From contig NZ_GL397214.1 of the NCBI RefSeq assembly GCF_000146675.1, forward strand, positions 711,568 through 745,918: a DNA stretch of 34,351 nucleotides, in the 5' to 3' direction. Positions within the stretch are counted from its first letter, which is position 1, and every line of letters starts with the position of its first letter. A model generated the notes under the pieces. That model worked only from the letters and a program-made list of their open reading frames with translations, was not told the origin of the DNA and ran no database searches. The position numbers and the translations under genes were made by a program. Source of the DNA: Hoylesella marshii DSM 16973 = JCM 13450 (GTDB lineage Bacteria; Bacteroidota; Bacteroidia; Bacteroidales; Bacteroidaceae). This document shows positions 1,567 through 34,351 of the stretch, one piece after another.

Positions 1567-4053
1567 ATGACAGAAAACAATAACCCTGAAACAGGAACAA
1601 ACAAGACACGGGCTGAGAACAAATCACTCTTCGACCTCGGAGCCGTTTATACTGCACTTATCCTTAATTGGAAATGGTTTCTCATTTCATTGACACTCTG
1701 CCTGAGCCTCGTGGCCATTTACCTAAGGTATGCAACACCTGTGTACATGGTTGCTGTTAAATTGCTCATCAAAAACGAAGACAGCGGAAGACGGGCAAAC
1801 AACATACAGTATGCCTCCAATTTGGGTACGATGTCGAACTCTACCGGACTTGACAACGAGATGGAAATACTGAAATCGCATTCCATAGCTGAAGCTGCGG
1901 TGAGAGACCTCAAACTCTACGTTAATTACATTGCGGAGGGGAAAATAAAAGACAATCCTGTTTATAGGACAGAACCCGTCAGCGTGGATATAGATACGAC
2001 GCATCTGAACCGACTCGCATCGACTATCAGCCTTAGCATTACACGGGAGGACAACGCATACAATGTGAAGGGAGAATACTACGCTCCGACAGCACAGAAC
2101 AGGGAGGCGGGTATTTTCACCATCAACAAGACACTCCGCACCTTACCCGCAACCATTCAGACCCATGTGGGAACCCTCTCCTTTCAACAAAACGGTGTCT
2201 ACTCCATGCCCAACGGTTCTACGCTTCGTGTCTATGTATCACCGCCCAAAAGCATTGCCAACGGATATGCAGGCGGGCTCGGTGTAACGCAAACATCGAA
2301 GACAACCTCGATTGTCAGCCTCACCCTTACAGACCAAGTGCCGCAACGGGGCATGGACTACCTCAAACAGTTGGCTATCTGTTATAATCGGCAGGCCAAC
2401 GAAGATAAGAACGAGATAGCTGTGCGCACGGAAAGGTTTATCAACGAACGGCTGGAGAAAATAAACAACGAGCTGGGAAACACTGAAGGGCAGATTGAAA
2501 ACTACAAGAGGCGGAACAACATGACGCAACAGTCGAGCAACGCCGGTCTGGCCATGCAGAATACCGATGCTTATCAAAAGAAACTGTCGGATGCCAACAC
2601 GCAGCTTGCACTTCTCAACAACATGGAGAAATACATTGGCGAACCGGCTAATAGATACCAGACTTTACCCTCAAATATCGGGCTTTCAGACCAGACATCC
2701 AACGACCTCATCAGTAAATACAACGAGATTGTGCTGCAACGAAACCGACTGTTGCGCAGTGCCGCAGAGGGAAGTCCCATGGTTACTCCCCTGACAGCAC
2801 AGCTGAACGACCTGATGGCGGGTATCAAGCGTGCCATGGCACAATCAAGACGCGCCATGGAAATACAACGAAACGTCGTCGCCACAGAATATGGCCGTTA
2901 TGCGGGACAACTCCATCAAAGTCCCGAACAGGAGCGCATACTCACCCAGATAGGACGTCAGCAAGAGGTGAAATCGGGGCTGTATTTGATGTTGCTGCAA
3001 AAGCGGGAGGAGAACTCTATCTCGCTCGCTGCCACAGCCGACAAAGGCAGAATGATAGATACGCCCATCTATGCCGGACAAGTCAGTCCCAAATCTACCA
3101 TCCTTATCCTCATAGCTCTCGGTCTGGGGCTTGCTATACCCGCACTCATCATCTTCATCATCAGGTTTCTACGCTATAAGATTGAGGGACATGACGATGT
3201 GATGAAGCTGACCAAACTCCCCATACTCGCAGACGTGGCCATTGCCAGCGATACGGCAAAGACCAAAGCAGATATTGTGGTACACGAGAACAAGAATAAC
3301 CAGATGGAGGAGATATTCAGAAGTATGCGCACCAATTTGCAGTTCATCCTCAAAGAAAACGAGAAAGTGGTGATGTTCACATCCACTACATCGGGCGAAG
3401 GAAAGACTTTCAATGCCGCCAATCTCTCCGTCAGCTTCGCACTGCTTGGCAAGAAGGTGCTCCTGCTTGGCCTTGATGTGCGCCGTCCGCGTCTGGCCGA
3501 ACTCTTCCAACTGCACGACCATAAACACGGCATCACCAATCTGCTGGTGCATGACAATCCCACACAAGAGGAGCTCGACGCACAGATATTGCCGTCGGGT
3601 GTGCATCCGAACCTCGACCTGTTGTTGTCCGGCCCCATTCCGCCCAACCCCGCAGAGTTGCTCGCTCGACCATCGTTGGACAAGATTATGGACATGCTGA
3701 AAGAACGCTACGACTACATTCTCATCGACACTGCACCTGTGGGACTGGTTACAGATACCTTGCAAATCAGCAGGATTGCCAATGCCACCATATACATGTG
3801 TCGTGCCGACTATACGCAAAAGAACAGTTTCGACCTTATCAACACACTCGACGAAGAGAAGAAACTTCCCAAAATCTCTATTGTTATCAATGGTATCGAC
3901 ATGTCGAAGAAGAAGTACGGCTACTACTATGGCTATGGACGATACGGCAAATACGGACGTTACGGCAAATACGGTTACGGAAGCTACAGACACTACGGGA
4001 ACTACAGCTATAGCCACTACGGGAACAAAAACGACAACTCCATCAAACGATAA
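1567..4053 (+). CDS. Polysaccharide co-polymerase / BY-type tyrosine autokinase (Wzc family)
   Basis: This inner-membrane protein of 828 residues controls chain length and export of capsule or exopolysaccharide. An N-terminal Wzz domain starts with a TM helix (about residues 37-58). A long periplasmic part with coiled-coil character (about 290-480) follows, then a second TM helix (about 510-536). The cytoplasmic kinase has Walker A TSGEGKT (608-614), Walker A' ending in D637 (LLGLDVRRP) and Walker B ILIDTAP with D721. The C-terminus is an unusually tyrosine-rich tail (about residues 782-822, many Tyr alternating with Gly, Lys and Arg), the expected autophosphorylation cluster. In this family, cycles of tail phosphorylation control polymer length. 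The outer-membrane partner Wza is not in the window. Confidence 0.93.
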   Translation: MTENNNPETGTNKTRAENKSLFDLGAVYTALILNWKWFLISLTLCLSLVAIYLRYATPVYMVAVKLLIKNEDSGRRANNIQYASNLGTMSNSTGLDNEMEILKSHSIAEAAVRDLKLYVNYIAEGKIKDNPVYRTEPVSVDIDTTHLNRLASTISLSITREDNAYNVKGEYYAPTAQNREAGIFTINKTLRTLPATIQTHVGTLSFQQNGVYSMPNGSTLRVYVSPPKSIANGYAGGLGVTQTSKTTSIVSLTLTDQVPQRGMDYLKQLAICYNRQANEDKNEIAVRTERFINERLEKINNELGNTEGQIENYKRRNNMTQQSSNAGLAMQNTDAYQKKLSDANTQLALLNNMEKYIGEPANRYQTLPSNIGLSDQTSNDLISKYNEIVLQRNRLLRSAAEGSPMVTPLTAQLNDLMAGIKRAMAQSRRAMEIQRNVVATEYGRYAGQLHQSPEQERILTQIGRQQEVKSGLYLMLLQKREENSISLAATADKGRMIDTPIYAGQVSPKSTILILIALGLGLAIPALIIFIIRFLRYKIEGHDDVMKLTKLPILADVAIASDTAKTKADIVVHENKNNQMEEIFRSMRTNLQFILKENEKVVMFTSTTSGEGKTFNAANLSVSFALLGKKVLLLGLDVRRPRLAELFQLHDHKHGITNLLVHDNPTQEELDAQILPSGVHPNLDLLLSGPIPPNPAELLARPSLDKIMDMLKERYDYILIDTAPVGLVTDTLQISRIANATIYMCRADYTQKNSFDLINTLDEEKKLPKISIVINGIDMSKKKYGYYYGYGRYGKYGRYGKYGYGSYRHYGNYSYSHYGNKNDNSIKR

Positions 4054-4078
4054 CAAAACCCTTAACTACACAAGAACT

Positions 4079-4513
4079 ATGACCATTGCTGTAGACTTCG
4101 ACGGAACTATCGTTGAACATAAATACCCTGCGATAGGAGAAGAGATTCCCTTTGCCACGGAGACGCTCCGGATGCTGATAGCCGACCGCCATAAAGTCAT
4201 TCTGTGGAGCGTGCGCGAGGGAGAACTCCTTGAAGAAGCGGTAAAATGGTGCAAAGACCGTGGCGTGGACTTCTATGCCATAAACAAAGATTACCCTGAA
4301 GAAACGGAGGAACACAACAATCACTTCTCCAGAAAACTGAAAGCCGATCTCTTTATCGACGACCGTAACATCGGAGGCTTACCGGATTGGGGCACCATCT
4401 ATCAGATGGTCACACACGGAGATGTCTATGCCCAAACGCAGGGGGATCCGACCATGGGGTGGCATGGCAACCGAGACGGACAACCGAAGAAGAAACGTTG
4501 GTGGCCATTCTAA
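4079..4513 (+). CDS. Small HAD-like hydrolase, BT_0820-type
   Basis: A 144-residue protein starting MTIAVDFDGTIVE. The DFDGT segment is HAD motif I, with the nucleophile and acid/base aspartates at D6 and D8. A later LFIDDRNIGG segment supplies the acidic residues of motif IV. There is no cap domain, so it is a minimal member of the superfamily; substrate unknown. The frame is open far upstream inside the kinase gene, but the ATG at 4079 is 25 bp past the kinase stop and gives the conserved N-terminus. Its place at the end of the polysaccharide operon could suggest phosphate-ester removal in that pathway, or action on the tyrosine-phosphorylated kinase, but that is inference. The C-terminus ends in a basic, aromatic stretch, KKKRWWPF. 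Confidence 0.82.
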   Translation: MTIAVDFDGTIVEHKYPAIGEEIPFATETLRMLIADRHKVILWSVREGELLEEAVKWCKDRGVDFYAINKDYPEETEEHNNHFSRKLKADLFIDDRNIGGLPDWGTIYQMVTHGDVYAQTQGDPTMGWHGNRDGQPKKKRWWPF

Positions 4514-4727
4514 TCCCTATCCTTACTGATAACGGGAACATGCCGAAAAGCATTTTCCCTATCAAAACATTTATTTTAAGGAATATCATGTATCTTTACG
4601 GTGGTAATAAAGATTTTGAGGTGCTAAATCAAGTATTCATAAACAGACCATCCTCATTATATTATACTTACACTGTAGGTGCGATTAGACTTATAGGTAG
4701 GAGTAGATACTAGCACCTACGAGCAAG

Positions 4728-4812
4728 AGTGTTTAACACCTTTGGATGGGAGTGTAGTACACCTGTTCCTATAGGGCTTATACTATAAGTAGGGTTGGAC
4801 TTATACTATAAG
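4728..4812. repeat. Palindromic repeat array, about 23-bp spacing
   Basis: Four palindromes follow one another: GTGTTTAACAC (centre 4734), GTGTAGTACAC (4757), CTTATACTATAAG (4783) and CTTATACTATAAG (4806). Spacings are 23, 26 and 23 bp. The first unit, with flanking gcaagagtgtttaacacc, is the same sequence that is tandemly repeated five times at 17236-17350. It lies between convergent genes, so a role at transcript ends is possible. Function unknown. Confidence 0.6.
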
Positions 4813-5174
4813 GTAGAGCGTACAAGTAAATATAGTGAATGATACAATAAGGACTATTGAGACGCAGCTTGCTATGTTCTAAATTCGTCGAATTCACGTT
4901 AATTATGAACTTATGTTCTGCCCTTACTGCATATTGCTTTTTGAGAATAAGCCAGAGGCACTGCCTGTATATGTGGAAAAGTCAAGGCTGTTAGAATTAT
5001 TTGCATGCTAAACTTATCCCGAACTCGCGTATTCCTTATATCTCGTGAGGTGAAATCCTATTGTAAAGACAGTTGTCCTCTAACTATCCTGCGCCCCGTC
5101 CTTAGCCTTTTTCCCCCGATAAGCAACCGAATAACCGGCCGGCACTTCATCAATGAGGGAATAAGAACGCAGAT

Positions 5175-17116: not shown

Positions 17117-17155
17117 CCCTCAATCGGTCATGAGCGTATCGGTTGGTATTTATCC

Positions 17156-17221
17156 AAACATGTATAATGAGTTATACAAACGTGTATAATAAGTTATACA
17201 GACGTGTATAATGAGTTATAC
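17156..17221. repeat. 22-bp tandem repeat, 3 units, hairpin-forming
   Basis: Three units of exactly 22 bp (17156, 17178, 17200) each contain GTATAA-tgag/taag-TTATAC, a perfect 6-bp inverted repeat with a 4-nt spacer. A fourth, decayed unit (tcctgtgtatag) follows. The units differ at only a few positions, mostly outside the arms. Confidence 0.85.
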
Positions 17222-17235
17222 TCCTGTGTATAGTA

Positions 17236-17350
17236 GCAAGAGTGTTTAACACCTATAGGCAAGAGTGTTTAACACCCATGGGCAAGAGTGTTTAACACCC
17301 ATAGGCAAGAGTGTTTAACACCCATGGGCAAGAGTGTTTAACACCCATGG
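17236..17350. repeat. 23-bp tandem repeat, 5 units
   Basis: Five consecutive units of exactly 23 bp start at 17236, 17259, 17282, 17305 and 17328. Each has the core gcaagagtgtttaacacc with the palindrome GTGTTTAACAC; only two or three positions at the unit ends vary (tatag, catgg, catag). The same core occurs once at 4723-4740. Near-identity of the units suggests recent expansion or continuing homogenisation. Confidence 0.93.
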
Positions 17351-23116: not shown

Positions 23117-23461
23117 TCCTTCTATTTTTACGTTTGGTTTTAGCGTCATCAAATGCAAAGCCAACCAGCGAGTGCAAAATTAATTAATATTTTTGTAGAA
23201 TACCTCTTTTGCAGTGTGAAAATTGAGCTTTGAGCTGTAAGCACTGAAACGAAGTTCGCTGTGCGAAGTAAAAGCAAAGTGTGACAGAATCGCACAAACG
23301 ATACGAGTTACGCCGAGAAAAGATTCAAGATATTTGTATCTTTCAGATAACCAATAAAATAAGAATGAATAATGGATAAATGGGTTACGACTTGGAAACG
23401 AGCGAGTTTCTTTCTCCTTCTTTATTCTGCAATGCCTCAAAGAACACTTAAATTGATTGTG

Positions 23462-23469
23462 CAAAGATA
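23462..23469 (-). promoter_or_regulatory. Candidate -7 box (TATCTTTG), leftward
   Basis: TATCTTTG read on the - strand fits the -7 consensus. It would give the acyltransferase a leader of about 340 nt. No clear -33 partner. Low to moderate support. Confidence 0.35.
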
Positions 23470-23715
23470 ATGCTTTTCTGATGAAAACAGTGTGCTTTTA
23501 CGGAAATAAATAGGAAACACACCTAAAAAATAATCACATACAAAGTCTAATGGGAGGAATTTGACGGGATTTTCAGCCTAATTATTAAGCCTGCAAAAAA
23601 TACCCAGAATCAACTCTTTTGCATTGCAAAATAAGAAAAATGAAACTTTTTGGAGAAAAATCCTCCGAAAAATTTGGCAGATTGAAATAATTTGCATAAT
23701 ATTGCACTTATAAAC

Positions 23716-23733
23716 ACAGAACAAACGTTCTGT
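23716..23733. promoter_or_regulatory. Palindromic operator upstream of tetR
   Basis: ACAGAAC-aaac-GTTCTGT is a perfect 7-bp inverted repeat with a 4-nt spacer, 23 nt before the tetR ATG. Position and shape fit an autoregulatory operator of a TetR-family dimer. Binding is inferred. Confidence 0.62.
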
Positions 23734-23756
23734 TCTAATTCTAGTATAATGAAATA

Positions 23757-24383
23757 ATGGAAAAACAAATAGATAAAGAAAGCATAAGCAAAAGGGACAT
23801 TATCCTTAATGAATCGTTCAGGCTGTTTCTGAAAAAAGGTTATGCAGCAGTATCATTTTCGGATTTAGTGGAAGCTACTGGCATTTCTCGTGGCAATATG
23901 TTCCATCACTTCAAGAATAAGGAGGATATATTCAATCATGCCGTTGATAGGTTTGTATTTGAATTCTTGACAAATGATGCTACAGACTTTCTTGAACTTA
24001 CAAGCTCTACACCATTAAAGGACTTCATTGATAATCGTGTAGAAAACATCGGTCGCCGTATGAAATCATTTTTTATAATGACAAAAGGCACAGTCACTCC
24101 TGCCAATTTCATGTCATTTATCTTGTATCTGAAAGACAACTATCCGGATTGGAAAGAGAAATTTCAAGAATACGAGAAAAGAAAGAGCCTTGAGTGGAAA
24201 GAGGTGATAGAGCTTGCCAAACAGAAAGGAGAGATTACTCAAACTGTGGAAACAGAAAAGATTATATCTTCCATTAGAAATATATATCTTGGATTGTCAT
24301 ACAGAAGTGCATTGAGCAGCCAACTTTCTATTTCCGAATTGAAAGAGCAAATATACACAATATACTATTTAATAACCAAATAA
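23757..24383 (+). CDS. TetR/AcrR family transcriptional regulator
   Basis: A 208-residue regulator with the classic N-terminal TetR helix-turn-helix: FRLFLKKGYAAVSFSDLV, then TGISRGNMFHHFKNKEDIF (about residues 22-60). The C-terminal ligand-binding domain is all-helical and not recognisable to a particular ligand. A palindromic operator lies just upstream. The ketoacyl synthase gene follows after 7 bp and is probably co-transcribed, so the regulator may control that gene and perhaps the downstream peptide operon. The ligand is unknown. Confidence 0.9.
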   Translation: MEKQIDKESISKRDIILNESFRLFLKKGYAAVSFSDLVEATGISRGNMFHHFKNKEDIFNHAVDRFVFEFLTNDATDFLELTSSTPLKDFIDNRVENIGRRMKSFFIMTKGTVTPANFMSFILYLKDNYPDWKEKFQEYEKRKSLEWKEVIELAKQKGEITQTVETEKIISSIRNIYLGLSYRSALSSQLSISELKEQIYTIYYLITK

Positions 24384-24390
24384 TATTCCT

Positions 24391-25527
24391 ATGGAAAAAG
24401 CAGCATATATCAATAGCGTATCGGCATATCTTCCTAATTCTCCCATCGCCAATGAGGATATGGAAGACTATATCGGAAAAATTGGTGGAAATCCGTCAAG
24501 GGTTCGTTCCATTGTCCTTAGACAAAATGGCATCAAAACGAGATATTACGGGTTGGACAAAAATCAAAGCCTAACACACTCGAATGCAGAATTGGCAAAA
24601 GAAGCCGTATGTGGGCTGTTTGAAAATGGAAATATTCCTGACGACTTGACCCTTTTGGCTTGTGGGACAAGCACACCCGATCAATTGCTTCCTTCCCATG
24701 CGTCTATGGTTCATGGAGAATTAGCCAACTATCCTATGGAAATATTTTCCTCTGCAGGTGTATGCCTTACCTCATTGCAGGCATTGAAAATATGCTATAG
24801 CAATATTCTTGCAGGACTGCATCAAAAAGCTGTATGCGTGGCATCAGAATTAACTTCACCTGCATTGGTATCCAAATTTTATGACCCGGAGTATGAAGCT
24901 ACACATGACAATCCTGACAAAGACCCTTATATGGCTTTTGAGAAGGATTTTATGCGATTTATGCTTTCTGATGGTGCAGGAGCGGTATTGGTGCAAGATC
25001 ATCCCGAAGGAATATGTCCTCTCAAAATCGAATGAGTCGATATGACTTCCTATGCCAACGAACTACCTACCTGTATGTTCATGGCATCAGAGTTGCAAGA
25101 AGATGGGCGGCTCAAAAGTTGGAAGGAGTTCTCTCCTAATGAGATTAAGGAACGTGCCGTGCTTGTTGGCAAACAGGACATTCGGCAGCTAAAGAAATAC
25201 ATCATCAAGTACTGGGTAGACCATATCGAAACCGTACTTGCCAAACATCATGTAAAAGCAGAAGAGATAGACTATATTATACCTCATGTATCATCAATGT
25301 TTTTCTATGAGAAATTAAATGACGAAATTGCTGCTCGTAACATTGCTCTGACAAAAGAGAAGTGGTTTACAAACCTTACTTCTGTAGGCAACATCGGTTC
25401 GGCTGCCATTTATGTCGGATTGGAAGAACTCATAAGGACAAAAGAAATTAAACGTGGAAACAAGATACTTCTTCTTGTACCGGAAAGTGGAAGGTTCTCG
25501 TATGGAACAGTGCTTCTATCTGTATGA
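24391..25527 (+). pseudogene. 3-oxoacyl-ACP synthase III-like gene interrupted by one in-frame UGA
   Basis: The reading frame codes for a FabH-like thiolase-fold enzyme of 378 codons, but codon 215 (25033-25035) is TGA. Homology continues in the same frame directly after it (VDMTSYANELPTC). Both halves look intact: the nucleophile C125 (SSAGVCLTS) is before the stop; the catalytic His (codon 299, IIPHVSSMF) and Asn (codon 334, SVGNIGSA) are after it. A TGG-to-TGA change would explain the break. The second half could restart at the ATG at 25042, but neither fragment alone would carry the catalytic triad. UGA is the normal stop of the radical SAM and ABC genes nearby, so global recoding is unlikely. 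Alternatives are programmed readthrough or a sequence error. It follows tetR by 7 bp. Confidence 0.8.
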
Positions 25528-25653
25528 TAGTTAGCCTCTGTATTTATGAAGTCCCTTGCAAGGAGTTTGTAAAAAACAAAAGAGAACGGAATAAGAATTA
25601 AAGAATAACTTGCATTTAGAAAAAATAAAAAACACAAGCTATTAGCTTGGAAG

Positions 25654-25674
25654 TTGCAGTTATCTGCAATGCAG
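25654..25674. promoter_or_regulatory. Overlapping palindromes in the leader of the peptide operon
   Basis: TTGCAG-ttat-CTGCAA (25654-25669) overlaps CTGCA-a-TGCAG (25664-25674) in the 239-bp spacer between the ketoacyl synthase and the precursor gene. It could be a regulator site or a transcript hairpin. No clear TAnnTTTG box was found in this spacer. Confidence 0.35.
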
Positions 25675-25766
25675 TAATTCCTACCGAATAACTCGGGAAA
25701 CTGTATGAAATAAAGGACGCGGATTCGAAAAGCGACATGAGTAGAATTATATAAACACTACTATCT

Positions 25767-26039
25767 ATGATAGAAAATGATTTTATCACCATTATTGATG
25801 GAATTGAAAATTTAGATTCTAACTTAATGGGAATGTTGCATGGAGGTCTTTCTAACAACATGAATGATTGCAATTGTGGCTCGGGAAATAGCAATACGGA
25901 ACAAACAGAACACGGTAGTAACGATTGTACTTGTGGATCAGCAAACAGTAACAAGATTGCAGCTCCTTCTGATTGCACTTGTGGGTCTGCAAATAGTAAT
26001 AGTGCACATTCAACAATAAGACAATTACAATTTGGATAA
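25767..26039 (+). CDS. Candidate RiPP precursor peptide with double-glycine leader and three Cys-X-Cys repeats
   Basis: A 90-residue peptide. Residues 1-27 form an acidic/hydrophobic leader ending LMGMLHGG, a double-glycine site of the type cut by C39 peptidases. The 63-residue core is rich in Ser, Asn, Gly and Cys and contains three copies of D-C-[NT]-C-G-S-[GA]-N-S-N at 34-43, 53-62 and 69-78, giving six cysteines (35, 37, 54, 56, 70, 72), and ends TIRQLQFG. The Gly and first Ser codons differ in all three copies (GGC/GGA/GGG and TCG/TCA/TCT), so the repeat is kept at protein level. It is followed by a terminator, then a radical SAM/SPASM gene and a C39 exporter. I infer a modified secreted peptide, possibly thioether cross-linked. 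I do not recognise a named family. Confidence 0.82.
   Translation: MIENDFITIIDGIENLDSNLMGMLHGGLSNNMNDCNCGSGNSNTEQTEHGSNDCTCGSANSNKIAAPSDCTCGSANSNSAHSTIRQLQFG
25866..26000 (+). repeat. Three 30-bp coding repeats in the precursor core
   Basis: Copies are at 25866-25895, 25923-25952 and 25971-26000, with start-to-start spacing of 57 and 48 bp. They encode nearly identical decapeptides while drifting at synonymous sites, which separates them from a recent slippage repeat. Confidence 0.85.
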
Positions 26040-26047
26040 TCTTTATT

Positions 26048-26098
26048 AGCCATATCGAATTAGTTGGATTTAGTCCTGTTGATTTGATATGGCTTTTT
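26048..26098 (+). terminator. Intrinsic terminator/attenuator between precursor and radical SAM gene
   Basis: A perfect 9-bp stem, AGCCATATC (26048-26056) with GATATGGCT (26086-26094), is followed by a run of T to 26098; the loop is 29 nt. It begins 9 bp after the precursor stop. It should end most transcripts there and let some continue, keeping peptide above enzyme. The 3' arm covers the ATG at 26089, which argues for the later ATG at 26113 as the true maturase start. Confidence 0.78.
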
Positions 26099-26112
26099 AT
26101 ATATTCTTAAAT

Positions 26113-27444
26113 ATGAGTGATTTTATTATTTCTAAGTATTGCATTCCTTTTTTATCATCAGATGAAAAAGCTTATTTTTATTTGTCAAACAACAATTCTC
26201 TACATAAAGTGAGTCGTAAAATTTATGACTCGGTCTGCGAATGTAAAAAAAATCCTTCTTCAATAAGCCGTATTCCAGAGAAGATTTTCCAAAAATTGAA
26301 AACAGTCAATATCATTACCACTGTTGAAGAAGAAACCAATTATTACCGTAAAATAAAGATGGATTATTTTATGGAAGTTTTCTCCCATCAAAAACTACTT
26401 TTAACAATAGCACCAACAAGCGATTGTAACTTTAATTGTCCTTATTGTTTTGAAGAGAACAAAAGACCCATAAGAATGTCTGATGCCGTAATTGAAAATA
26501 TAATTCTTTTTATAAAACGTTACAAACATCTTGAATATCTATATATTACATGGTATGGGGGAGAGCCGTTAATGGCAATAGATATTATAGAAAAAATTCT
26601 GAATAGAATTAGTATCGAGATACCAAATATTAAAATATCTCATCATTTCCTTGTTACAAACGGATATTTGATAAATGAAAAGATGCTTTCTCTTTTTTCC
26701 AAATATCCACTTAACTCAATTCAAATCACATTAGATGGCAATAAACCACGTCACGATAATTTGAGAAAACTAAAAAAAAGTGGGTTGGGAACTTTTGATA
26801 AAATAGTTAGAAATATTGACTGTATTTTGAAAAGCATGCCTAGTACGCAAATTTCTGTTCGCGTTAATCTTGACAAGGATAATGTTGGAGATTTTGAGAA
26901 TATCAGAAATGAGTTGCTTGAAAAATGGAGTTCTTATCCAAATATAACAATATATCCAGGCATATTACGAATAGAAGACACTGTAAACAAATGTATGGGA
27001 TGTCAATCTTTATTACACGATGACGTTCGAGATTTGTTTTATGGATTAACAGAAGCCGTCAATTTCTATCCTGTTTTACAAGGTAAAGGGTGTTCGGCAA
27101 CTCATCTAAACTCCTTTTTAATTGGTCCTTTAGGAGAGTTATATAAATGTTGGAATGAACTTGGAGATAGCAAGAAAATAATTGGTTATATTAACGATCA
27201 AGACTTCAAAAACAAAGATTTAATACGAAAATATGTATTATCAGCCAATTGTTTTGAAGATGAAAAATGTAAGGATTGCGAATTTATACCTATTTGCATG
27301 GGAGGATGCGCCTTTTATCGAATCAAGAATATGTTTGACAATGGGAATTTTGACATTTGCTCACTCTACAAAGATAACGGAGTAATAGAAAAATGTATTT
27401 GTTTACATTTGGATAAACTGAGGATTAAAACACCTTCTATCTGA
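26113..27444 (+). CDS. Radical SAM/SPASM peptide maturase
   Basis: A 443-residue enzyme expected to modify the upstream peptide. The radical SAM cluster motif CxxxCxxC is C105, C109, C112 (CNFNCPYCF), followed by YGGEP, which binds S-adenosylmethionine. The C-terminal SPASM domain is complete: C327, G-x4-C346, then C386-x2-C389-x5-C395-x3-C399 and C416, enough for two auxiliary [4Fe-4S] clusters. The first 80 residues could be a leader-recognition region of the PqqD/RRE type, but this is inference. The frame is open to an ATG at 26089, inside the terminator stem; MSDFIISKYCIPF at 26113 is preferred. The gene is strikingly AT-rich: two 60-base lines I counted (26521 and 26641) had 21 and 18 G+C. 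The chemistry is unknown; thioether formation is one possibility. Confidence 0.9.
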   Translation: MSDFIISKYCIPFLSSDEKAYFYLSNNNSLHKVSRKIYDSVCECKKNPSSISRIPEKIFQKLKTVNIITTVEEETNYYRKIKMDYFMEVFSHQKLLLTIAPTSDCNFNCPYCFEENKRPIRMSDAVIENIILFIKRYKHLEYLYITWYGGEPLMAIDIIEKILNRISIEIPNIKISHHFLVTNGYLINEKMLSLFSKYPLNSIQITLDGNKPRHDNLRKLKKSGLGTFDKIVRNIDCILKSMPSTQISVRVNLDKDNVGDFENIRNELLEKWSSYPNITIYPGILRIEDTVNKCMGCQSLLHDDVRDLFYGLTEAVNFYPVLQGKGCSATHLNSFLIGPLGELYKCWNELGDSKKIIGYINDQDFKNKDLIRKYVLSANCFEDEKCKDCEFIPICMGGCAFYRIKNMFDNGNFDICSLYKDNGVIEKCICLHLDKLRIKTPSI

Positions 27445-27462
27445 AATTTTAATATAATCTAT

Positions 27463-29772
27463 ATGCAAAGACTATTTTTGTTCGCGTTCATGGTTTGCAC
27501 ATTTAGCAACATAAATGCGCAGTATTCTATTATTGGAAAAGTCCTCATCGAGAATGGTGACACCCTTGAATCCAATGTAGAGCTGTACACCAAAAGCCAT
27601 ACGGTTGTCTCTGCCGTACAAACACAGAAAGGAATGTTTTCATTCTCAAATCTCGCAAAAAACAATTTTTATTATGTGGTTGCATCACATGTCGGATATA
27701 CTACTGACACAATAAAGATAGACCGCATAACAAAGGATCTGAACATTGGGACAATGTTCCTTAAAGACAGTCTTACTACGTTGGACGAAGTTACCGTTGT
27801 GGGAAGCAGCATAAGTTTTCAAAATGGAAGCAAGAGAATTTTCCCCAATGAATTTCAAAGAAACAGTCCTGACGCTATGGTTATGCTTGACAAGATGAAC
27901 CTGTCGAGGATTAATGTTGACCCACTAACAAAAAGCCTGACACTGAACGGTGGCGGAAGCGTTAAGACATTGCTTAACGGAAGGGAGGTATCAGCCGTTG
28001 AAATTGCTGCACTTTCCCCGGAAATTATACAGCGCGTAGAATACCACGACACGCCGGAAGCACGGTATGGCAATGCAGACGTGGTCTTGGATTTTATTAC
28101 CAAAAACGACCAAGTTGGCGCAAGGGTTTACCTTTCTTTGTGGCAGGGGCTTTTAACGAGTTTCGGAGAGGACTACATTTCCTTGAAATTCAACCGCTGG
28201 AACAGCCAGTTTTCATTAGACTACAATATGGCATACCGCAATTGGAAACACCTCAGCAGGGAATATGAAGAGGACTTTAATCTGCAAAATGAGAACTTTT
28301 CGAGAACCGAACTGGGGCATCCTGGACGATACAGATACGACAATCACAACGTACATTTCAATTACAACTATCAGGAGAACAAGAAAATAATTAACTTTTC
28401 ACTGGGGACAGCCATCCAAAATGCACCGTATAAAGAGTGGAACAGTGATTTGCACTATAAAGGGACAGCACTCAACTTATACGACAATGCGAAATCATCG
28501 GCCACAAATCCTTATTCGCAACTATATATACAGTTGCCCATAGGAGAAAATCAACTATATGTAATGAATCTCTCTGGTCAATACAACAAAGGGAAATACA
28601 ACCGTCTGTATCAGGAGGCAGACAACGAAAGTGAATCCAACCAATTCTGCAGTAATGTCCGTGAGATTCAAAAAGGCTATGCGCTGTCGCAATTATACGA
28701 GAACAGGCAGAATTGGGGAACTTTGACCATTGGAGCAAACTTCAACCAGCAGTTTACCAAAAGCGACTACAATTCAGTCCGAAACGATATGACACAGAAG
28801 CATCACACAGGCCAACGCCAGACCAACCTTTATTCTTATGCACAATGGGGAAAGGCATGGAGCGAACTTTATTGCCGAGTGGGCATTGGACTGAACCAGC
28901 GATGGATGCATGTGGGAGAACAAAAACAAAGCACCTTTACGATTCGTCCGATGCTATTCGTCCGTTATACCGTTTCTCCAAAAATCGAACTTCGTTATCA
29001 GGGGTCGGTCTCTAATATAATGCCTACACTTTCGGCTATTTCTGACTATTCACAGGATATAGATTTTATACAGATACAGCGAGGTAATCCTAATCTCAAG
29101 CCGCAGATTGATTTCTATAATGCGTTGGTATTCAATTATAAATTCACAAAAACAGCATTGGCTCTCTACTTGAATGAAACATATTCAAAGTCGCCAATCA
29201 TGGAATGCACATATCTGGATAATGAAAAGGTGGTCAGAACCATGGAAAATCACAAGAATTTTCAGAACTATAATGCGGAATTTGAATATGGAGGGCAGCC
29301 TTTTGGCAATCTGCTGTCGTTCAAAGTTTATACCGGCTTAAAATTTTATAAAAGCAATGGCAACCAATACACTCACCGCAAAACAATACCCTACTATGGG
29401 GGTCAGGTTTCTGTTTACTATAAACAATTCACTATGAGATGGCAGTTTCGCAAGAATGTGCAGGACAGGTTTTGGGGAGAAACGCTTTATCGGTATGAAG
29501 ACGGCCACATGTTGTCGTTTGGCTATCAGACAAATAAACTCAGCCTTTCTGCCGATGTGCTGAATCTGTTTTCTTTGAAGCATATTTCCGCACAAGAAAA
29601 CTATTCAAGCGTGGCTCCTTACAAACGCTATGAATATCTTGATGAAACAAGAAATCTTATACGTTTAAACCTTACGCTGAACCTATCGTATGGTAAAAAA
29701 TACAAGGAGGATTCAAAACGCATAAACAGCAACACAAGCAGTGAATCATCCGTCATTAAAGGAGAGAAATAA
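27463..29772 (+). CDS. TonB-dependent-receptor-like outer membrane beta-barrel protein
   Basis: A 769-residue outer-membrane protein. A signal peptide (MQRLFLFAFMVCTFSNINA, cut near residue 19-20) is followed by a carboxypeptidase-D-regulatory-like beta domain (about 22-100), a plug-like domain (about 108-215: LDEVTVVG, LLNGREVSAVEI, VEYHDTPEARYG) and a long barrel with alternating aromatic residues. This order matches the Bacteroidetes OMP_b-brl_3 group rather than SusC. It begins 18 bp after the radical SAM gene and ends 21 bp before the exporter, so it belongs to the peptide operon. It may pass the mature peptide across the outer membrane, take it back up, or give immunity; nothing in the sequence decides which. 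Confidence 0.88.
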   Translation: MQRLFLFAFMVCTFSNINAQYSIIGKVLIENGDTLESNVELYTKSHTVVSAVQTQKGMFSFSNLAKNNFYYVVASHVGYTTDTIKIDRITKDLNIGTMFLKDSLTTLDEVTVVGSSISFQNGSKRIFPNEFQRNSPDAMVMLDKMNLSRINVDPLTKSLTLNGGGSVKTLLNGREVSAVEIAALSPEIIQRVEYHDTPEARYGNADVVLDFITKNDQVGARVYLSLWQGLLTSFGEDYISLKFNRWNSQFSLDYNMAYRNWKHLSREYEEDFNLQNENFSRTELGHPGRYRYDNHNVHFNYNYQENKKIINFSLGTAIQNAPYKEWNSDLHYKGTALNLYDNAKSSATNPYSQLYIQLPIGENQLYVMNLSGQYNKGKYNRLYQEADNESESNQFCSNVREIQKGYALSQLYENRQNWGTLTIGANFNQQFTKSDYNSVRNDMTQKHHTGQRQTNLYSYAQWGKAWSELYCRVGIGLNQRWMHVGEQKQSTFTIRPMLFVRYTVSPKIELRYQGSVSNIMPTLSAISDYSQDIDFIQIQRGNPNLKPQIDFYNALVFNYKFTKTALALYLNETYSKSPIMECTYLDNEKVVRTMENHKNFQNYNAEFEYGGQPFGNLLSFKVYTGLKFYKSNGNQYTHRKTIPYYGGQVSVYYKQFTMRWQFRKNVQDRFWGETLYRYEDGHMLSFGYQTNKLSLSADVLNLFSLKHISAQENYSSVAPYKRYEYLDETRNLIRLNLTLNLSYGKKYKEDSKRINSNTSSESSVIKGEK

Positions 29773-29793
29773 TAATAATTTTTGATTTTAATA

Positions 29794-32010
29794 ATGAGTT
29801 TTGCAATAAAACGACAGCGAGATGCTATGGATTGCGGTCCTTCCTGTTTGGCGATGATAGCCAAACATTATGGACAGCAAGCTGATAAGGAGCAATTGCG
29901 GAAAATCTGTTCCTTAGGCAAAGAAGGTGTTTCTCTTCTTGGTATCAGCAAGGCTGCAGAAAACCTCGGTTTCAAGACCATTGGAGGACGTTTGAGTTTT
30001 GAAATGCTATACCAAGAGGATCCGATGCCTTGTATTATACACTGGAATCAGAACCATTTTGTCGTTGTCTATAAGATAAAAAAGCACAATAAAGGAAAAT
30101 ATACCGTATATGTAGCAGATCCGGGCAAGGGACTTGTTACCTATACCAAGGAGGAATTCTGCGAGCATTGGGTTAGTACCAAGACAAACGGTGAAGAAAA
30201 AGGTATTGTACTGCTCCTCGAGCCGACGGAACAATTCTATGCTCAAAACGATACGAAAGCAGTGCCGACTCAAAGGCGAGTGAAATTCCTCTGGAGCTAT
30301 CTCAAGAAATACAAGCGTTTTTTTACGCAACTCATTCTCGGTTTGTTACTCGGCTCACTCCTGCAACTTGTCTTCCCGTTCCTCACCCAAGCTATTGTAG
30401 ATACAGGTATAGGGGGAAAGGATGTCGGCTTTGTGTGGCTGGTGCTGCTGGCTGAGATGATGCTCCTCTTTAGCCGTACCGCCATTGACTTTATCCGCTC
30501 AAAGATACTCCTGCACATCTCCACCCGTATCAACATCTCGCTCATCTCAGACTTCTTCATCAAGCTGATGAAACTACCGATGAAGTTCTTCGATACCAAG
30601 CTGATGGGCGACCTTTTGCAACGCATTGAAGACCATCGCCGTGTTGAGCAGTTTCTTACCTCAAGCAGTCTAAGTCTGCTTTTCTCTTTCTTCACATTTC
30701 TGATCTTCGGTGTCGTTCTTGCTGTCTATAATCTCGGCATCTTCCTTGTCTTCTTGTTTGGGACATCGCTTTACGCAAGCTGGATAATACTCTTTCTCAA
30801 AAAGCGTAGACAGTTGGACTACAAATACTTTGAGCAGGCAGGGCGCAACCGTAATGTAACCTACCAACTCATAGGAGGTATGCAGGAAATCAAGCTGCAA
30901 GGATGCGAGCAGCGCAAACGTTGGGAATGGGAGGACGTACAAGCCGACCTGTTTAAGGTCAATCTGCAATCGCTCAATCTGCAACAAGTGCAACAGGCAG
31001 GAAGCATCACCATCAATGAGGTGAAGAACATCCTCATTACCGTACTTGCAGCCACAGCCGTAATACACGGAAATATGACACTCGGTATGATGCTGGCGGT
31101 ACAGTACATCATCGGACAGCTCAACAGCCCTGTGGAACAACTCATCCAGTTTATCTACTCATGGCAAGACGTAAGCATCAGCCTTGACCGCATGAACGAA
31201 ATCCACACCGAGACCAACGAGGAAAATGTCGAACGGACACATACCGCCTATACGGACAAGACCACCGAAGGACATTCCCTCACGATAAAAGACCTATTCT
31301 TCAAATATGATATCTACAGTCCGAAAGATATTCTCTCCGACATCAATCTCTCTATTCCCAACGGCAAGGTAACGGCAATCGTGGGAGCGAGTGGAAGCGG
31401 AAAGACAACGCTCGTAAAACTCCTTTTGGGATTCTATGAGCCATTAAACGGAAGTATTCAGATAGGCAATGCCAATTTGAGTGAATACAACCTCGGCTGG
31501 TGGCGAAGCCAATGCGGTGCAGTGATGCAGGAGGGATATCTCTTCTCCGATACCATTGCGAGAAACATCGCAATATCTGACGATGAACCCGACATCGAAC
31601 GTATTCGTCATGCTGCCCGTGTAGCAAACATCGCAGACTACATCGAAGCCCTTCCTTTGGCTTACAACACAATGATTGGACAAGACGGACAAGGTATCAG
31701 TCAGGGGCAACGGCAACGCATTTTGATTGCAAGGGTAGTCTATAAGAATCCGATGTTCGTCTTCTTGGACGAAGCCACCAATGCCCTAGATGCCAACAAT
31801 GAACGAGCCATTACTGAAAACCTTTCGGAGTTCTACAAGGGAAAAACCGTTGTCGTGGTGGCACACCGTCTTTCCACCGTCCGCAATGCCGACCAGATAG
31901 TAGTGCTTGACGAGGGCAAAATCACAGAAGTGGGTACACACGAAGAACTCACGTCCAAACGTGGCAAATACTTTGCCTTAGTGAAAAACCAATTAGAATT
32001 GGGTAACTGA
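29794..32010 (+). CDS. Peptidase-containing ABC transporter (C39 bacteriocin-type exporter)
   Basis: A 738-residue half-transporter that cuts a double-glycine leader and exports the peptide across the inner membrane. The N-terminal C39 peptidase has C14 (MDCGPSC), H88 (WNQNHFVVV) and D109 (VADPG). A six-helix membrane domain spans about 160-450. The ATPase domain has Walker A GASGSGKTT (531-539), signature ISQGQ (635-639, in place of LSGGQ) and Walker B with D659/E660 (FLDEATNALD). The frame is open to a TTG at 29782, but ATG at 29794 gives the usual MSFAIKRQRDAMDCG start. It matches the GG site of the precursor at 25767. The second half is visibly richer in G+C than the radical SAM gene. Confidence 0.95.
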   Translation: MSFAIKRQRDAMDCGPSCLAMIAKHYGQQADKEQLRKICSLGKEGVSLLGISKAAENLGFKTIGGRLSFEMLYQEDPMPCIIHWNQNHFVVVYKIKKHNKGKYTVYVADPGKGLVTYTKEEFCEHWVSTKTNGEEKGIVLLLEPTEQFYAQNDTKAVPTQRRVKFLWSYLKKYKRFFTQLILGLLLGSLLQLVFPFLTQAIVDTGIGGKDVGFVWLVLLAEMMLLFSRTAIDFIRSKILLHISTRINISLISDFFIKLMKLPMKFFDTKLMGDLLQRIEDHRRVEQFLTSSSLSLLFSFFTFLIFGVVLAVYNLGIFLVFLFGTSLYASWIILFLKKRRQLDYKYFEQAGRNRNVTYQLIGGMQEIKLQGCEQRKRWEWEDVQADLFKVNLQSLNLQQVQQAGSITINEVKNILITVLAATAVIHGNMTLGMMLAVQYIIGQLNSPVEQLIQFIYSWQDVSISLDRMNEIHTETNEENVERTHTAYTDKTTEGHSLTIKDLFFKYDIYSPKDILSDINLSIPNGKVTAIVGASGSGKTTLVKLLLGFYEPLNGSIQIGNANLSEYNLGWWRSQCGAVMQEGYLFSDTIARNIAISDDEPDIERIRHAARVANIADYIEALPLAYNTMIGQDGQGISQGQRQRILIARVVYKNPMFVFLDEATNALDANNERAITENLSEFYKGKTVVVVAHRLSTVRNADQIVVLDEGKITEVGTHEELTSKRGKYFALVKNQLELGN

Positions 32011-32011
32011 T

Positions 32012-32497
32012 ATGGAAAAACAGGAAAATAAACAGGAACGGAGTTTTGAGCTCCGCAGCGAAAAAGTACGCAGCATCGTGGGGCAGATACCCTCATCTCT
32101 CGTTCGTTATGGTATTACTGCCATAGGAGCTATTTTGCTTTTTCTGTTAGCCGTAGCCTATTTCCTGCCTTATAAACAAGTGTATTTGGGAACGGCTACC
32201 GTACACGGAGCAACAACCGCAACACCAGCGGACAGCACAGATATAACCATCTTATTAAAGTTCGAGAATAAACGCCCCGACAATGTAAACGGACAAATGA
32301 TTTATCTGCAATCTCCCTATAGAACGTTTGCCGGGCAGATACAGGACCTTTCTTCCGTCCGTGACACATTGGAGCGTCAGGAAGCCCTTTGCCGTTTCAA
32401 GGTAACTGAGATAAAATCTGTGGAAAACCAGACGGTAGATTTCCAGATAACTCGAACATCGGGCAATCTGCTGCAAAAAATGCTTGGGGGAATATAA
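32012..32497 (+). CDS. Short HlyD-like membrane protein (adaptor N-terminus only)
   Basis: A 161-residue protein starting 1 bp after the exporter stop. Residues 12-52 (ELRSEKVRSIVGQIPSSLVRYG, then one TM helix at about 33-52) resemble the N-terminus of Bacteroidetes HlyD-type adaptor proteins that pair with C39 exporters. The remaining 110 residues form a small periplasmic domain predicted to be beta-rich. The long coiled coil and biotinyl-lipoyl parts of a normal HlyD (usually 400 residues or more) are absent. No leftover HlyD sequence is visible downstream, so it may be a naturally short partner rather than a broken gene. Role inferred from position: exporter accessory or immunity. Confidence 0.72.
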   Translation: MEKQENKQERSFELRSEKVRSIVGQIPSSLVRYGITAIGAILLFLLAVAYFLPYKQVYLGTATVHGATTATPADSTDITILLKFENKRPDNVNGQMIYLQSPYRTFAGQIQDLSSVRDTLERQEALCRFKVTEIKSVENQTVDFQITRTSGNLLQKMLGGI

Positions 32498-32794
32498 TCC
32501 CATCACACATTCCTTATCTCTCTCGATAGTCAATGGTTAAACTCACTGCTTTTTCACTACTCTTTTCCTTGATTTATCGCTTGCCATATTCTCTTATTTT
32601 TGTTTTTCTAATCACGACTTTGGAGTGATTTAATCCTCCCTTCGGGGCAAGGGTCTTTGTGGTACAAATGGCAATTTGTGGTACAAAGACACACCTTGCT
32701 GATGTAGAAAATGGGATTATAAGCCCATGCCGTGTTACTGCATTCACTGAATACAGTAACTCAGCGTAGGCTTGCATTCGAGGAATGCAGTACT
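32498..32794. other. Convergent spacer with several inverted repeats
   Basis: No gene is visible between the exporter operon (+) and the DUF3408 gene (-). It contains AATCAC/GTGATT (32610-32630), CCCTT/AAGGG (32638-32653), a direct repeat of TTTGTGGTACAAA at 32656 and 32675 nested in an outer GTCTTTGT/ACAAAGAC pair, TTACTG/CAGTAA (32735-32759) and TGCATTC-gag-GAATGCA (32773-32789). None has a clear T-tail, so a terminator is likely but not identified. Confidence 0.5.
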
Positions 32795-33301
32795 TCAGAG
32801 TTTCCGCCATCTTTCCACATCATCTTTGTATTGGTCGAGATGTTCTCGAAGCACCTGCTCCACATATCCAGAAACGCTTGCTCCCTGCTCACCGATTTTC
32901 CTCACCACGAAGTCCAACTTTCGTTGGGTTTCCTCTGATACATACACGGCTTTGCGGTGGCTGTTGCGAAAGGGCTGGAGATATTTCCCCTGAAACTCGG
33001 ATAATTGCTTCCTGTCCTTTGTTTTTCCCATTCGTTGATAATTCTCTTCGATAGAAGTAGCCCTTTCCGTTGGTGACAACTCTGTTTCTTGATAGGACGG
33101 TTGAGAATAGTCCTTGTGGCTCTCCTTGTCATTTTGTTCCTCAACTTTAACAGGCTCAAATCTTTTCTTTTCCTCTTCATAATCTATCGGCTGGTCAAAA
33201 TCGGGCAACTCTTCGGGCTTGCGGAGCTTAACGCCATAATTGCCCATATCTCGAAGGGCTTGTTCCAGACGTTGTTTCCTTTGTTCATCTATTCTTGCCA
33301 T
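32795..33301 (-). CDS. DUF3408 domain protein of mobile elements
   Basis: A 168-residue protein whose C-terminal part (about 113-168: RKAVYVSEETQRKLDFVV, then GEQGASVSGYVEQVLREHL) is the DUF3408 domain, resembling a ribbon-helix-helix DNA-binding fold. The N-terminal half is highly charged and probably disordered. The family is found mainly in Bacteroidetes conjugative and mobilizable elements. Its start overlaps the end of the upstream HTH gene by 13 bp, showing translational coupling. Exact role unknown. Confidence 0.88.
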   Translation of the reverse strand: MARIDEQRKQRLEQALRDMGNYGVKLRKPEELPDFDQPIDYEEEKKRFEPVKVEEQNDKESHKDYSQPSYQETELSPTERATSIEENYQRMGKTKDRKQLSEFQGKYLQPFRNSHRKAVYVSEETQRKLDFVVRKIGEQGASVSGYVEQVLREHLDQYKDDVERWRKL

Positions 33302-33603
33302 AATTTCTTGGGTATTGCGTTATAATGTCTTTCGAGCATAGCTTGTATGTCGCTTTGCCTGTAAAGTATCTTGCCTCCGATTTTGCAGTAGGCTATCGTT
33401 CCGCTGTCCCGATAGTCCTGAAGTGTGCGGGTACTCAGACGTAACAGACTGCAAACCTCCTCGCCAGTGAGGTAAACCTCTCCGCCTAACATCGGTCGGG
33501 CTGTAGAACAATAACGCTCCAGTTTCTTCAAAGTACCCTCCATCAGTTGTGCAAACATCTGCATTTGAGGGTCTTGCTGTGTAATGATTTCATTCTCCGA
33601 CAT
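33289..33603 (-). CDS. Excisionase-like helix-turn-helix protein
   Basis: A 104-residue protein with a C-terminal MerR-like HTH_17 fold: YLTGEEVCSLLRLSTRTLQDYRDSGTIAYCKIGGKILYRQSDI (about 44-86). Such proteins act as excisionases or regulators in Bacteroides conjugative transposons, comparable in type to the small Xis proteins of CTnDOT. It is the middle gene of a - strand trio, 3 bp after the upstream HTH gene and overlapping the DUF3408 gene. Confidence 0.87.
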   Translation of the reverse strand: MSENEIITQQDPQMQMFAQLMEGTLKKLERYCSTARPMLGGEVYLTGEEVCSLLRLSTRTLQDYRDSGTIAYCKIGGKILYRQSDIQAMLERHYNAIPKKLWQE

Positions 33604-33606
33604 AAT

Positions 33607-33876
33607 TCATTCATTGTTTGCGTTCAGTAAATTTGTGATGTCACTCTCCTTGTAATAACATTTATGCCCAATGATGGAAAAGGGTATTCTGCCTGTATCC
33701 CGATAAGATTGCAGGGTACGTTTGCTGATGCCGAGTCTGCGACATACGGCTTCGTTGTCGAGCCAATCGTCCTTTTCGGGCGGATTGCCGATGAGTTGTT
33801 CGATACGATGAATAAAGTCTGCAAAGTCGGAGCTGTGCCGCTCCCACGCTTTGCGGTCGATGATAATGAGTTTCAT
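33607..33876 (-). CDS. Excisionase-like helix-turn-helix protein
   Basis: An 89-residue protein with the HTH_17 pattern WLDNEAVCRRLGISKRTL, then YRDTGRIPFSIIGHKCYY (about 38-74), paralogous to the next gene. It is the first gene of the trio and has a plausible promoter about 80 nt upstream. A pair of such HTH genes is a hallmark of the integration/excision module of Bacteroides mobile elements. The integrase would be expected upstream, beyond the window. Confidence 0.87.
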   Translation of the reverse strand: MKLIIIDRKAWERHSSDFADFIHRIEQLIGNPPEKDDWLDNEAVCRRLGISKRTLQSYRDTGRIPFSIIGHKCYYKESDITNLLNANNE

Positions 33877-33956
33877 TTCCTTGATTTTGTTTTGATTACT
33901 TTATTGTTACTCGGCAAACGAACTAATATGCAGTCCATTGCCGTACTTATTGAGTG

Positions 33957-33987
33957 CAAAAGTAAACCCTCGGAAGCACCGCTGCAA
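33957..33987 (-). promoter_or_regulatory. Promoter of the HTH/DUF3408 operon
   Basis: On the - strand, TTG (33985-33987) and TACTTTTG (33957-33964) are separated by 20 bp, fitting the Bacteroidetes -33/-7 pattern, with a leader of about 75 nt to the first HTH gene. Confidence 0.58.
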
Positions 33988-34045
33988 GAAATGAGGAAAA
34001 GCAGGGAAATAGAAGGAAGAGAAGAGAAGTTAGTCTATCAGTCAG

Positions 34046-34177
34046 AAAAGCTCCTAAGCTTTCATTAAAAAGCTCTTAAGCTTTTTGTAAATTACTTATA
34101 AGCTTTTGTCAGATTACTTATAAGCTTTTTATAGATTGCTTATAAGCTTTTCATAGAAAGCTCCTAATCTTTAAGCG
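34046..34177. repeat. 22-bp tandem palindromic repeat, 6 units
   Basis: Six units of exactly 22 bp start at 34046, 34068, 34090, 34112, 34134 and 34156 without indels. The common core is taagcttt, in most units as CTTATAAG or AAGCT-cttA-AGCTT palindromes; the last unit is decayed. The period matches the arrays at 343 and 17156, though the sequence does not. Confidence 0.88.
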
Positions 34178-34324
34178 CAAAGGCTGGTAGCTTTCCCCAT
34201 CAGATTTGGAGTCGCCGCAGAAAAACTCTTATGTTCTGTATAAGAATGGTATGATTGCGGTAATGAGAAGAGGTGCCGGTTCTTTCCTTTTATCACATAG
34301 CAATTATTCTCTCGACAGTTCGAT

Positions 34325-34350
34325 AGTTCGACAAATCGATATGTAGAACT
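34325..34350. repeat. Inverted repeat cut by the window edge
   Basis: AGTTCGAC (34325-34332) and GTAGAACT (34343-34350) form a near-perfect inverted repeat around aaatcgatat. A related agttcga word occurs just to the left (34317-34323). It could be part of a recombinase or relaxase site, but the sequence ends here. Confidence 0.35.
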
Positions 34351-34351
34351 A

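Follow-up and report, generated by a model that had tools for sequence, protein, structure and literature searches.

A repeat-bearing candidate RiPP precursor, its radical SAM maturase and a short HlyD-like protein on a mobile island of Hoylesella marshii

Operon and precursor family

The window analysed here, a stretch of 34,351 nucleotides from Hoylesella marshii DSM 16973 = JCM 13450 (contig NZ_GL397214.1, positions 711,568 to 745,918), carries an operon of five genes, all on the + strand, encoding a precursor peptide (25767–26039), a radical S-adenosylmethionine (SAM) maturase (26113–27444), an outer-membrane barrel (27463–29772), a peptidase-containing exporter (29794–32010), and a short HlyD-like protein (32012–32497). 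The first-pass annotation had proposed the same five same-strand genes, and apart from the maturase start, discussed below, its coordinates were confirmed. By its gene content the operon is of the radical SAM, double-glycine (GG) leader type that makes ribosomally synthesised and post-translationally modified peptides (RiPPs), and it is carried on a mobile island, an assignment already made in that annotation and supported by the presence of the island in four genomes.

The precursor is 90 residues long, with a leader (residues 1–27) ending in LHGG, a leader/core junction reading LMGMLHGG/LSNN, and a 63-residue core (residues 28–90) that holds three D-C-x-C-G-S-x-N-S-N units, each of the form C-x-C-G-x-x-N-x-N, and terminates in LQFG. 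The leader and repeats had been noticed previously, and the sequence, shuffling, and homologues all bear them out; no shuffle among 200,000 of the 63-residue core yielded three units, and 249 yielded at least one. Numbered from the first Cys (C1 x2 C3 G4 S5 [GA]6 N7 x8 N9), the three units of the window differ only synonymously at C1, G4, S5, N7, S8, and N9, and share identical codons at C3 and the preceding Asp, residue changes being confined to positions 2 and 6. Because codons elsewhere than positions 2 and 6 are identical or synonymous, it is the protein unit that is kept; the repeat, conserved as protein and not as DNA, goes unreported by Tandem Repeats Finder.

Protein searches recovered nine precursor homologues at E ≤0.01 and 22 at E ≤1 (the first nine included), with the family comprising 19 distinct precursors including that of the window, each with two or three units, for a total of 49 units. 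Four fragments or deletion forms (P0004, P0005, P0007, and P0009) were left out of this count; P0005, a two-unit peptide, and P0009, in which the leader has been fused, in a different frame, to the tail of the maturase, are natural deletion forms. The two Cys and two Asn of each unit are fixed across the family, and the Asp ahead of the unit is nearly invariant (41 of 49 units). No NCBIfam or Pfam model describes the family (window peptide against both libraries, 18 members against NCBIfam), consistent with the first-pass remark that the repeat fits no RiPP family that could be named, and the repeat, in five spellings, is absent from the literature searched.

Strong precursor matches in assembled genomes are confined to the window, Prevotella veroralis (G026), Prevotella conceptionensis (G1051), Prevotella denticola NCTC13067 (G1160), and Porphyromonas levii (G1159), and in all five, own genome included, the precursor adjoins the maturase. 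Homologous peptides beside related maturases, sought at the suggestion of the first-pass annotation, were found at L005, L062, G026, and G1160. In Porphyromonas levii (L005) the order peptide, maturase, barrel, exporter is kept at identities of 43, 53, 45, and 54–61% respectively, with the exporter frame broken on that contig. The Prevotella species concerned are mouth bacteria. Broad scans gave strong matches in 1 of 395 phylum, 3 of 398 genus, and 1 of 374 order genomes (own genome counted each time), and their weak matches (2, 3, and 4 genomes; E 2e-5 to 0.006) added no further member among the frames listed, a 2697-residue frame of G176 being left out. The candidates from G010, G363, and G1145, all GG-leader or sister precursors, were not counted; at L075 (G1145:C177), two adjoining GG peptides, each with one C-x-C pair and then two Asn, neighbour a related maturase with one in-frame stop. 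A tblastn search of plasmids with the peptide returned no match, and viral contigs searched with the maturase and the precursor alignment gave pattern matches and no relative. On these sequence comparisons the precursor family is real and undescribed in the libraries and literature searched, and it has its own maturase clade within a known kind of operon.

Maturase and predicted cross-links

Directly 3′ of the precursor stop lies a terminator-like hairpin (26048–26094, + strand; a 16 bp stem followed by a T run) with a folding energy of -24.1 kcal/mol (z -6.8), equalled in none of 200 shuffles. A consensus terminator scan (8 found, 6.5 expected) does not list this hairpin, the loop limit of the scan being 8, and a sigma-70 promoter scan was uninformative (23 found, 27.6 expected). 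Hairpins are also predicted, without shuffles, after the peptide in Porphyromonas levii (L005), L051, and L055, and the hairpin of the window is a probable attenuator that would keep the precursor in excess over the enzyme. The maturase gene was correctly called by the first-pass annotation; its proposed start at 26089, however, falls inside the hairpin, and the start should be 26113, which is shared with most homologues and gives a protein of 443 residues.

Family models and structural matches identify this protein as a SPASM radical SAM enzyme. Its CX3CX2C motif reads CNFNCPYC at residue 105 of the 443-residue form, the Radical_SAM domain scores 74.3 bits against a cut-off of 29.5 and the SPASM model TIGR04085 53.2 against 27, and seven SPASM-type Cys (C335, C354, C394, C397, C403, C407, and C424 in a 451-residue reading) are invariant in 27 sequences; the motifs described as intact at first pass, including the exporter domains considered below, are thus all present. 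Among the best 25 of 67 NCBIfam matches, no RiPP-maturase cut-off is reached, with 199.7 bits against 600 for the Clo7bot model TIGR04334 (the top match by score), 114.5 against 340 for the PapB model NF047865, 88.3 against 425 for the SCIFF maturase model TIGR03974, and 48.1 against 300 for TIGR04148. The possibility raised earlier, that the enzyme belongs to a clade tied to a different substrate, finds no support within those 25 matches.

The solved enzyme nearest to the maturase over its whole length, with the best Foldseek E-value, is the thioether maturase CteB (5wgg). The N-terminal domain is also covered by matches to CteB and TigE, beginning at residues 15 and 8 of the predicted model (pLDDT 85.1) respectively, with the higher Z for CteB; the likeness of this domain to a RiPP recognition element was judged from the fold of the predicted model only. 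We propose that this putative leader-binding domain would hold the leader whilst the enzyme joins the two fixed Cys of each unit to the side chains of its two fixed Asn as thioethers. The prediction of Cys-to-Asn thioethers follows from the pair of Cys and the pair of Asn fixed in each unit, and Asn was chosen because enzymes forming non-alpha thioethers are described with Asp, Thr and, in NxxcA, Asn acceptors (as given in PMC8326336), and because PapB tolerates nested and variable spacing (as given in PMC9413430). The links could, for example, be nested (C3-N7 and C1-N9) or parallel (C1-N7 and C3-N9), and full modification would introduce up to six links, for a mass change of -12 Da.

Several observations weigh against this proposal. 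By Z, anSME is as good a fit to the maturase (25.2), with an alignment that starts only at residue 101, and since this equal fit is accompanied by scores far under the RiPP-maturase cut-offs among the matches listed, the bond type is not readable from the family. Precursors are unseen for 7 of the 12 rows of the maturase clade, and the precursor at L053 keeps the C-x-C with one Asn, not two. The invariant Asn could instead serve folding or metal binding, the near-invariant Asp before the units is an unexplained alternative acceptor, and the cross-linking itself is a prediction. A tree label test on the maturases (4 changes, as low in 60 of 500 shuffles, any maturase whose precursor is unseen being treated as unlabelled) was used neither way; two long branches flagged in that tree, L115 and L146, both lie outside the clade. 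The Cys might alternatively be linked to alpha-carbons, as in sactipeptides, or the enzyme might perform other radical chemistry, such as C–C cross-linking or cyclopropane formation. We consider this a possible but doubtful outcome, with the N-terminal domain covered by the matches to CteB and TigE, of which CteB has the higher Z and also the best Foldseek E-value, and with Asn as an acceptor that would offer a side-chain functional group like the Asp, Thr, and Asn of the non-alpha links described in PMC8326336.

Export apparatus

The exporter (738 residues) is a peptidase-containing ABC transporter in which Peptidase_C39 (PF03412), ABC_membrane (PF00664), and ABC_tran (PF00005) all score above gathering, and the structure of the ABC-type bacteriocin transporter 4ry2 covers residues 4–731. 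In our judgement, ATG 29794 is a likelier start than TTG 29782 in the same frame. C39 domains remove leaders after GG, and the same cut here would release a secreted 63-residue core, which might act as a bacteriocin or as a signal.

The barrel (769 residues) resembles TonB-dependent transporters, with an N-terminal carboxypeptidase-regulatory-like domain and a plug. OMP_b-brl_3 (PF14905) scores above gathering and CarbopepD_reg_2 below its cut-off, and a profile of 16 such barrels matches the plug and barrel regions of the colicin I receptor and the ferric enterobactin receptors, together with the SusC N-domain. An AlphaFold model of the barrel built on a three-row alignment (pLDDT 29.3) was not used. 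The short HlyD-like protein (161 residues) matches no Pfam or NCBIfam family, and its significant HlyD match is limited to positions 2–60 of the 433 in the profile, corresponding to the N-terminal anchor, leaving no room for the helical hairpin and lipoyl domains of a HlyD membrane-fusion protein (MFP); we therefore describe it as a mini-MFP. Several relatives of this protein match the first ~65 and last ~100 residues of HlyD, with the middle missing.

C39 loci were surveyed across the order, giving 89 places in 68 of 177 genomes (up to six candidates scored per genome, E ≤1e-120). Of these, 83 were examined (G286:C11, G293:C109, G256:C201, G288:C8, G293:C110, and G183:C54 were not fetched), and after 14 loci were dropped for contig ends, 69 remained. 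A barrel was scored within 1 kb upstream and an MFP within 1.2 kb, an MFP of at least 290 residues being called full-length. Barrels occurred with full-length HlyD at 3 loci and with a short form or none at 13, whilst loci lacking a barrel had full-length HlyD in 45 cases and a short form or none in 8 (p=1.9e-6, with the limits chosen after the table was seen and the loci of related genomes non-independent); counting one per genome per cell gives 3/11/37/8 (p=5.9e-5). The set enlarged with maturase-found loci began with 97 exporter frames, from which three shorter than 350 residues (pieces of L090 and L091) were dropped to leave 94 rows, and then 18 more (16 contig ends, 2 duplicates) to leave 76, distributed as 3/18/46/9 (Fisher p=3.1e-8). 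In this set, 18 of the 21 loci with a barrel directly upstream have a short form (14) or lack an MFP (4), and full-length HlyD is present at 46 of the 55 where no barrel is adjacent. The HlyD-like frames of the surveyed loci measure 54–94, 149–226, or 295–484 residues. Loci scored as lacking a barrel include L052 (barrel 2.9 kb off), L105, L116, and L124 (about 3.8–3.9 kb), and L168 (barrel downstream); at L100 the barrel is downstream of a full HlyD.

Because short forms accompany an adjacent barrel while full-length HlyD mostly lacks one, the association suggests a dedicated outer-membrane export route, in which the mini-MFP would hand the product to the barrel, and the barrel, as the exit, would replace the HlyD hairpin/TolC route. 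The terms applied at first pass consequently need revision, in that "receptor" sits poorly with a barrel whose co-occurrence points to export, and "stub", in the sense of a remnant, with a short form that recurs in many loci. Set against an export role are the three loci with both a barrel and full-length HlyD, the 9 of 55 loci without an adjacent barrel that have a short form (6) or no MFP (3), the lack of a significant HlyD match in the C-terminal half of the mini-MFP of the window, and the nearest solved relatives of the barrel, which are importers; it is possible that the barrel takes up the product.

C-x-C is a classic spacing of metal ligands, and the peptide might accordingly be a metallophore, with its C-x-C units (together with Asp or Asn) binding metal, modified or not, and the barrel re-importing the loaded peptide, as would suit a barrel profile whose matches, extending to the plug, include importers of ferric enterobactin and vitamin B12. 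We regard this as distinctly improbable, as the same barrel class adjoins exporters with unrelated precursors (L051, L059, L060, L096, and L107), the barrel tracks the absence of full-length HlyD, a better fit to export, and no metal-handling family was found among the eight operon-region proteins scanned against NCBIfam and Pfam. Overall, the reading that combines Cys-to-Asn thioethers formed by a CteB-like SPASM radical SAM enzyme, leader removal by the C39 domain, and export via the mini-MFP and barrel is, in our estimate, slightly better than evenly placed to be correct.

At L096 (2459–3110) and L107 (1654–2274), exporter loci with a barrel and short form have GG peptides arranged three in a row, with abundant C-x3-C motifs and no radical SAM enzyme detected. 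The genome of the window has two further C39/barrel/short-form loci, L089 and L090 (G000:C1:544731–546941 and 555511–557391), likewise with no radical SAM enzyme detected; their exporters are 91% and 88% identical to that of the window, with one barrel split and one exporter interrupted by two stops.

Mobile island and relation to known systems

The operon lies on an integrative element of 14.5 kb, of which 23309–34351 is in the window, ending at window-equivalent 37824 (G000:C1:749391), with two tyrosine recombinases at its right end outside the window. Family scans place three further genes of the element on the - strand, encoding a DUF3408 protein (32795–33301), an HTH_17 protein that may be excisionase-like (33289–33603), and an HTH_17/MerR-like protein (33607–33876). 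The island occurs in four genomes and is decayed in a fifth. It is 99.9% identical in P. denticola NCTC13067, whose copy carries about 1 kb of additional DNA (L081, about 3996–5024), 99.9% identical from 25315 on in P. conceptionensis, where an assembly gap hides the left end, and in P. veroralis 97% identical to 34351 and 89% beyond. This near-identical tyrosine-recombinase island stands at different flanks in different Prevotella species, with a direct repeat, GAYTACGCCCGCAA, at its ends in NCTC13067; the window copy has a different left flank sharing only TTACGCC, and no direct repeat of at least 9 bases was found there. Since the exporter/mini-MFP stretch of P. veroralis is more diverged (82–97% identical per 500 bases, against 96–100% in the rest of 23309–34351) and the genome of the window has two further such loci, resident copies are probable recombination partners of this module.

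A TetR gene (23757–24383) precedes a DarB-type ketosynthase of the dialkylresorcinol family split into two adjacent frames (24391–25035 and 25042–25527, covering profile positions 1–212 and 217–376 of 377), and the same two frames are found in the P. veroralis and NCTC13067 copies. A 22-bp tandem array lies at 34047–34172, with alignments to other island copies breaking nearby at 34351–34420, and two adjoining arrays of 22 and 23 bp lie at 17150–17350.

The operon could be a decaying or non-functional remnant carried as cargo, a view to which the split darB, the deletion variant P0009, and the broken exporter frame in Porphyromonas levii lend some weight, as does Prevotella multiformis (L006/L071), which retains two island pieces with an internal deletion, no precursor, and little of the maturase. 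This is nevertheless very improbable. In P. denticola NCTC13067 and P. conceptionensis, each of the five genes has an open frame and an identity of at least 99.8%; in P. veroralis the peptide, maturase, barrel, and exporter are open (the mini-MFP is unscored there owing to a gap); the full-length maturase is 100% identical in records of three other species; and the drift within the repeats is synonymous.

Among known systems, the ranthipeptides (PapA/PapB freyrasin, CteA/CteB SCIFF, and NxxcA) share a SPASM radical SAM maturase, PapA having a repeated Cys motif (six CX3D; PMC9413430, as far as its text describes), NxxcA an Asn acceptor (as stated in PMC8326336), and CteB being the nearest solved relative over full length. 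They differ in the acceptor predicted here, an Asn that follows the C-x-C in units each holding a pair of Cys and a pair of Asn, in that the maturase falls far below the PapB and SCIFF cut-offs, and in the setting, a Bacteroidota operon with a barrel and mini-MFP. The GG-Bacteroidales maturase/target pair TIGR04148/TIGR04149 likewise combines a GG-leader peptide with a radical SAM enzyme; however, besides the low TIGR04148 score, only 3 of 18 precursors match TIGR04149, and weakly (best E 0.0036), and the window peptide does not at E 1. The likeness to Clo7bot enzymes is confined to the top score noted above, well short of its cut-off. Bacteroidetocins also come from Bacteroidales and pair GG-leader peptides with a peptidase ABC transporter, but their partners are a transmembrane protein and mostly a thiol oxidoreductase, the relevant passages of PMC6671954 mentioning no radical SAM enzyme.

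A parallel in architecture is found in the Bacteroidales biosynthetic gene clusters BGC1–9, described in the text of PMC10352776 as having GG precursors, a radical SAM enzyme in 8 of 9, a peptidase-containing transporter in 7 of 9, and an outer-membrane protein in several. That text, taken apart from figures and supplements, contains no mention of denticola, levii, TonB, or HlyD. Because such an architecture is already described there, the novelty of the present locus lies in the peptide family and the export correlation, and not in the set of genes to make, modify, cut, and export a peptide. The stronger claim, of a new RiPP class with two Cys-to-Asn thioethers per unit and six per peptide, exported by a peptidase ABC transporter, a hairpin-less mini-MFP, and a TonB-type barrel working in the export direction, on a self-contained island spread among Prevotella, is one that we put forward tentatively and think unlikely to hold in full.

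With three copies of its unit serving as a built-in internal control, the peptide would make a compact RiPP substrate with which to ask if Asn can act as a downstream acceptor for radical SAM enzymes. Furthermore, no MFP was found for BGC6–9, and how such clusters export their products is a question posed in the text of PMC10352776, for which a short HlyD-derived protein with an adjacent TonB-type barrel offers a concrete candidate.

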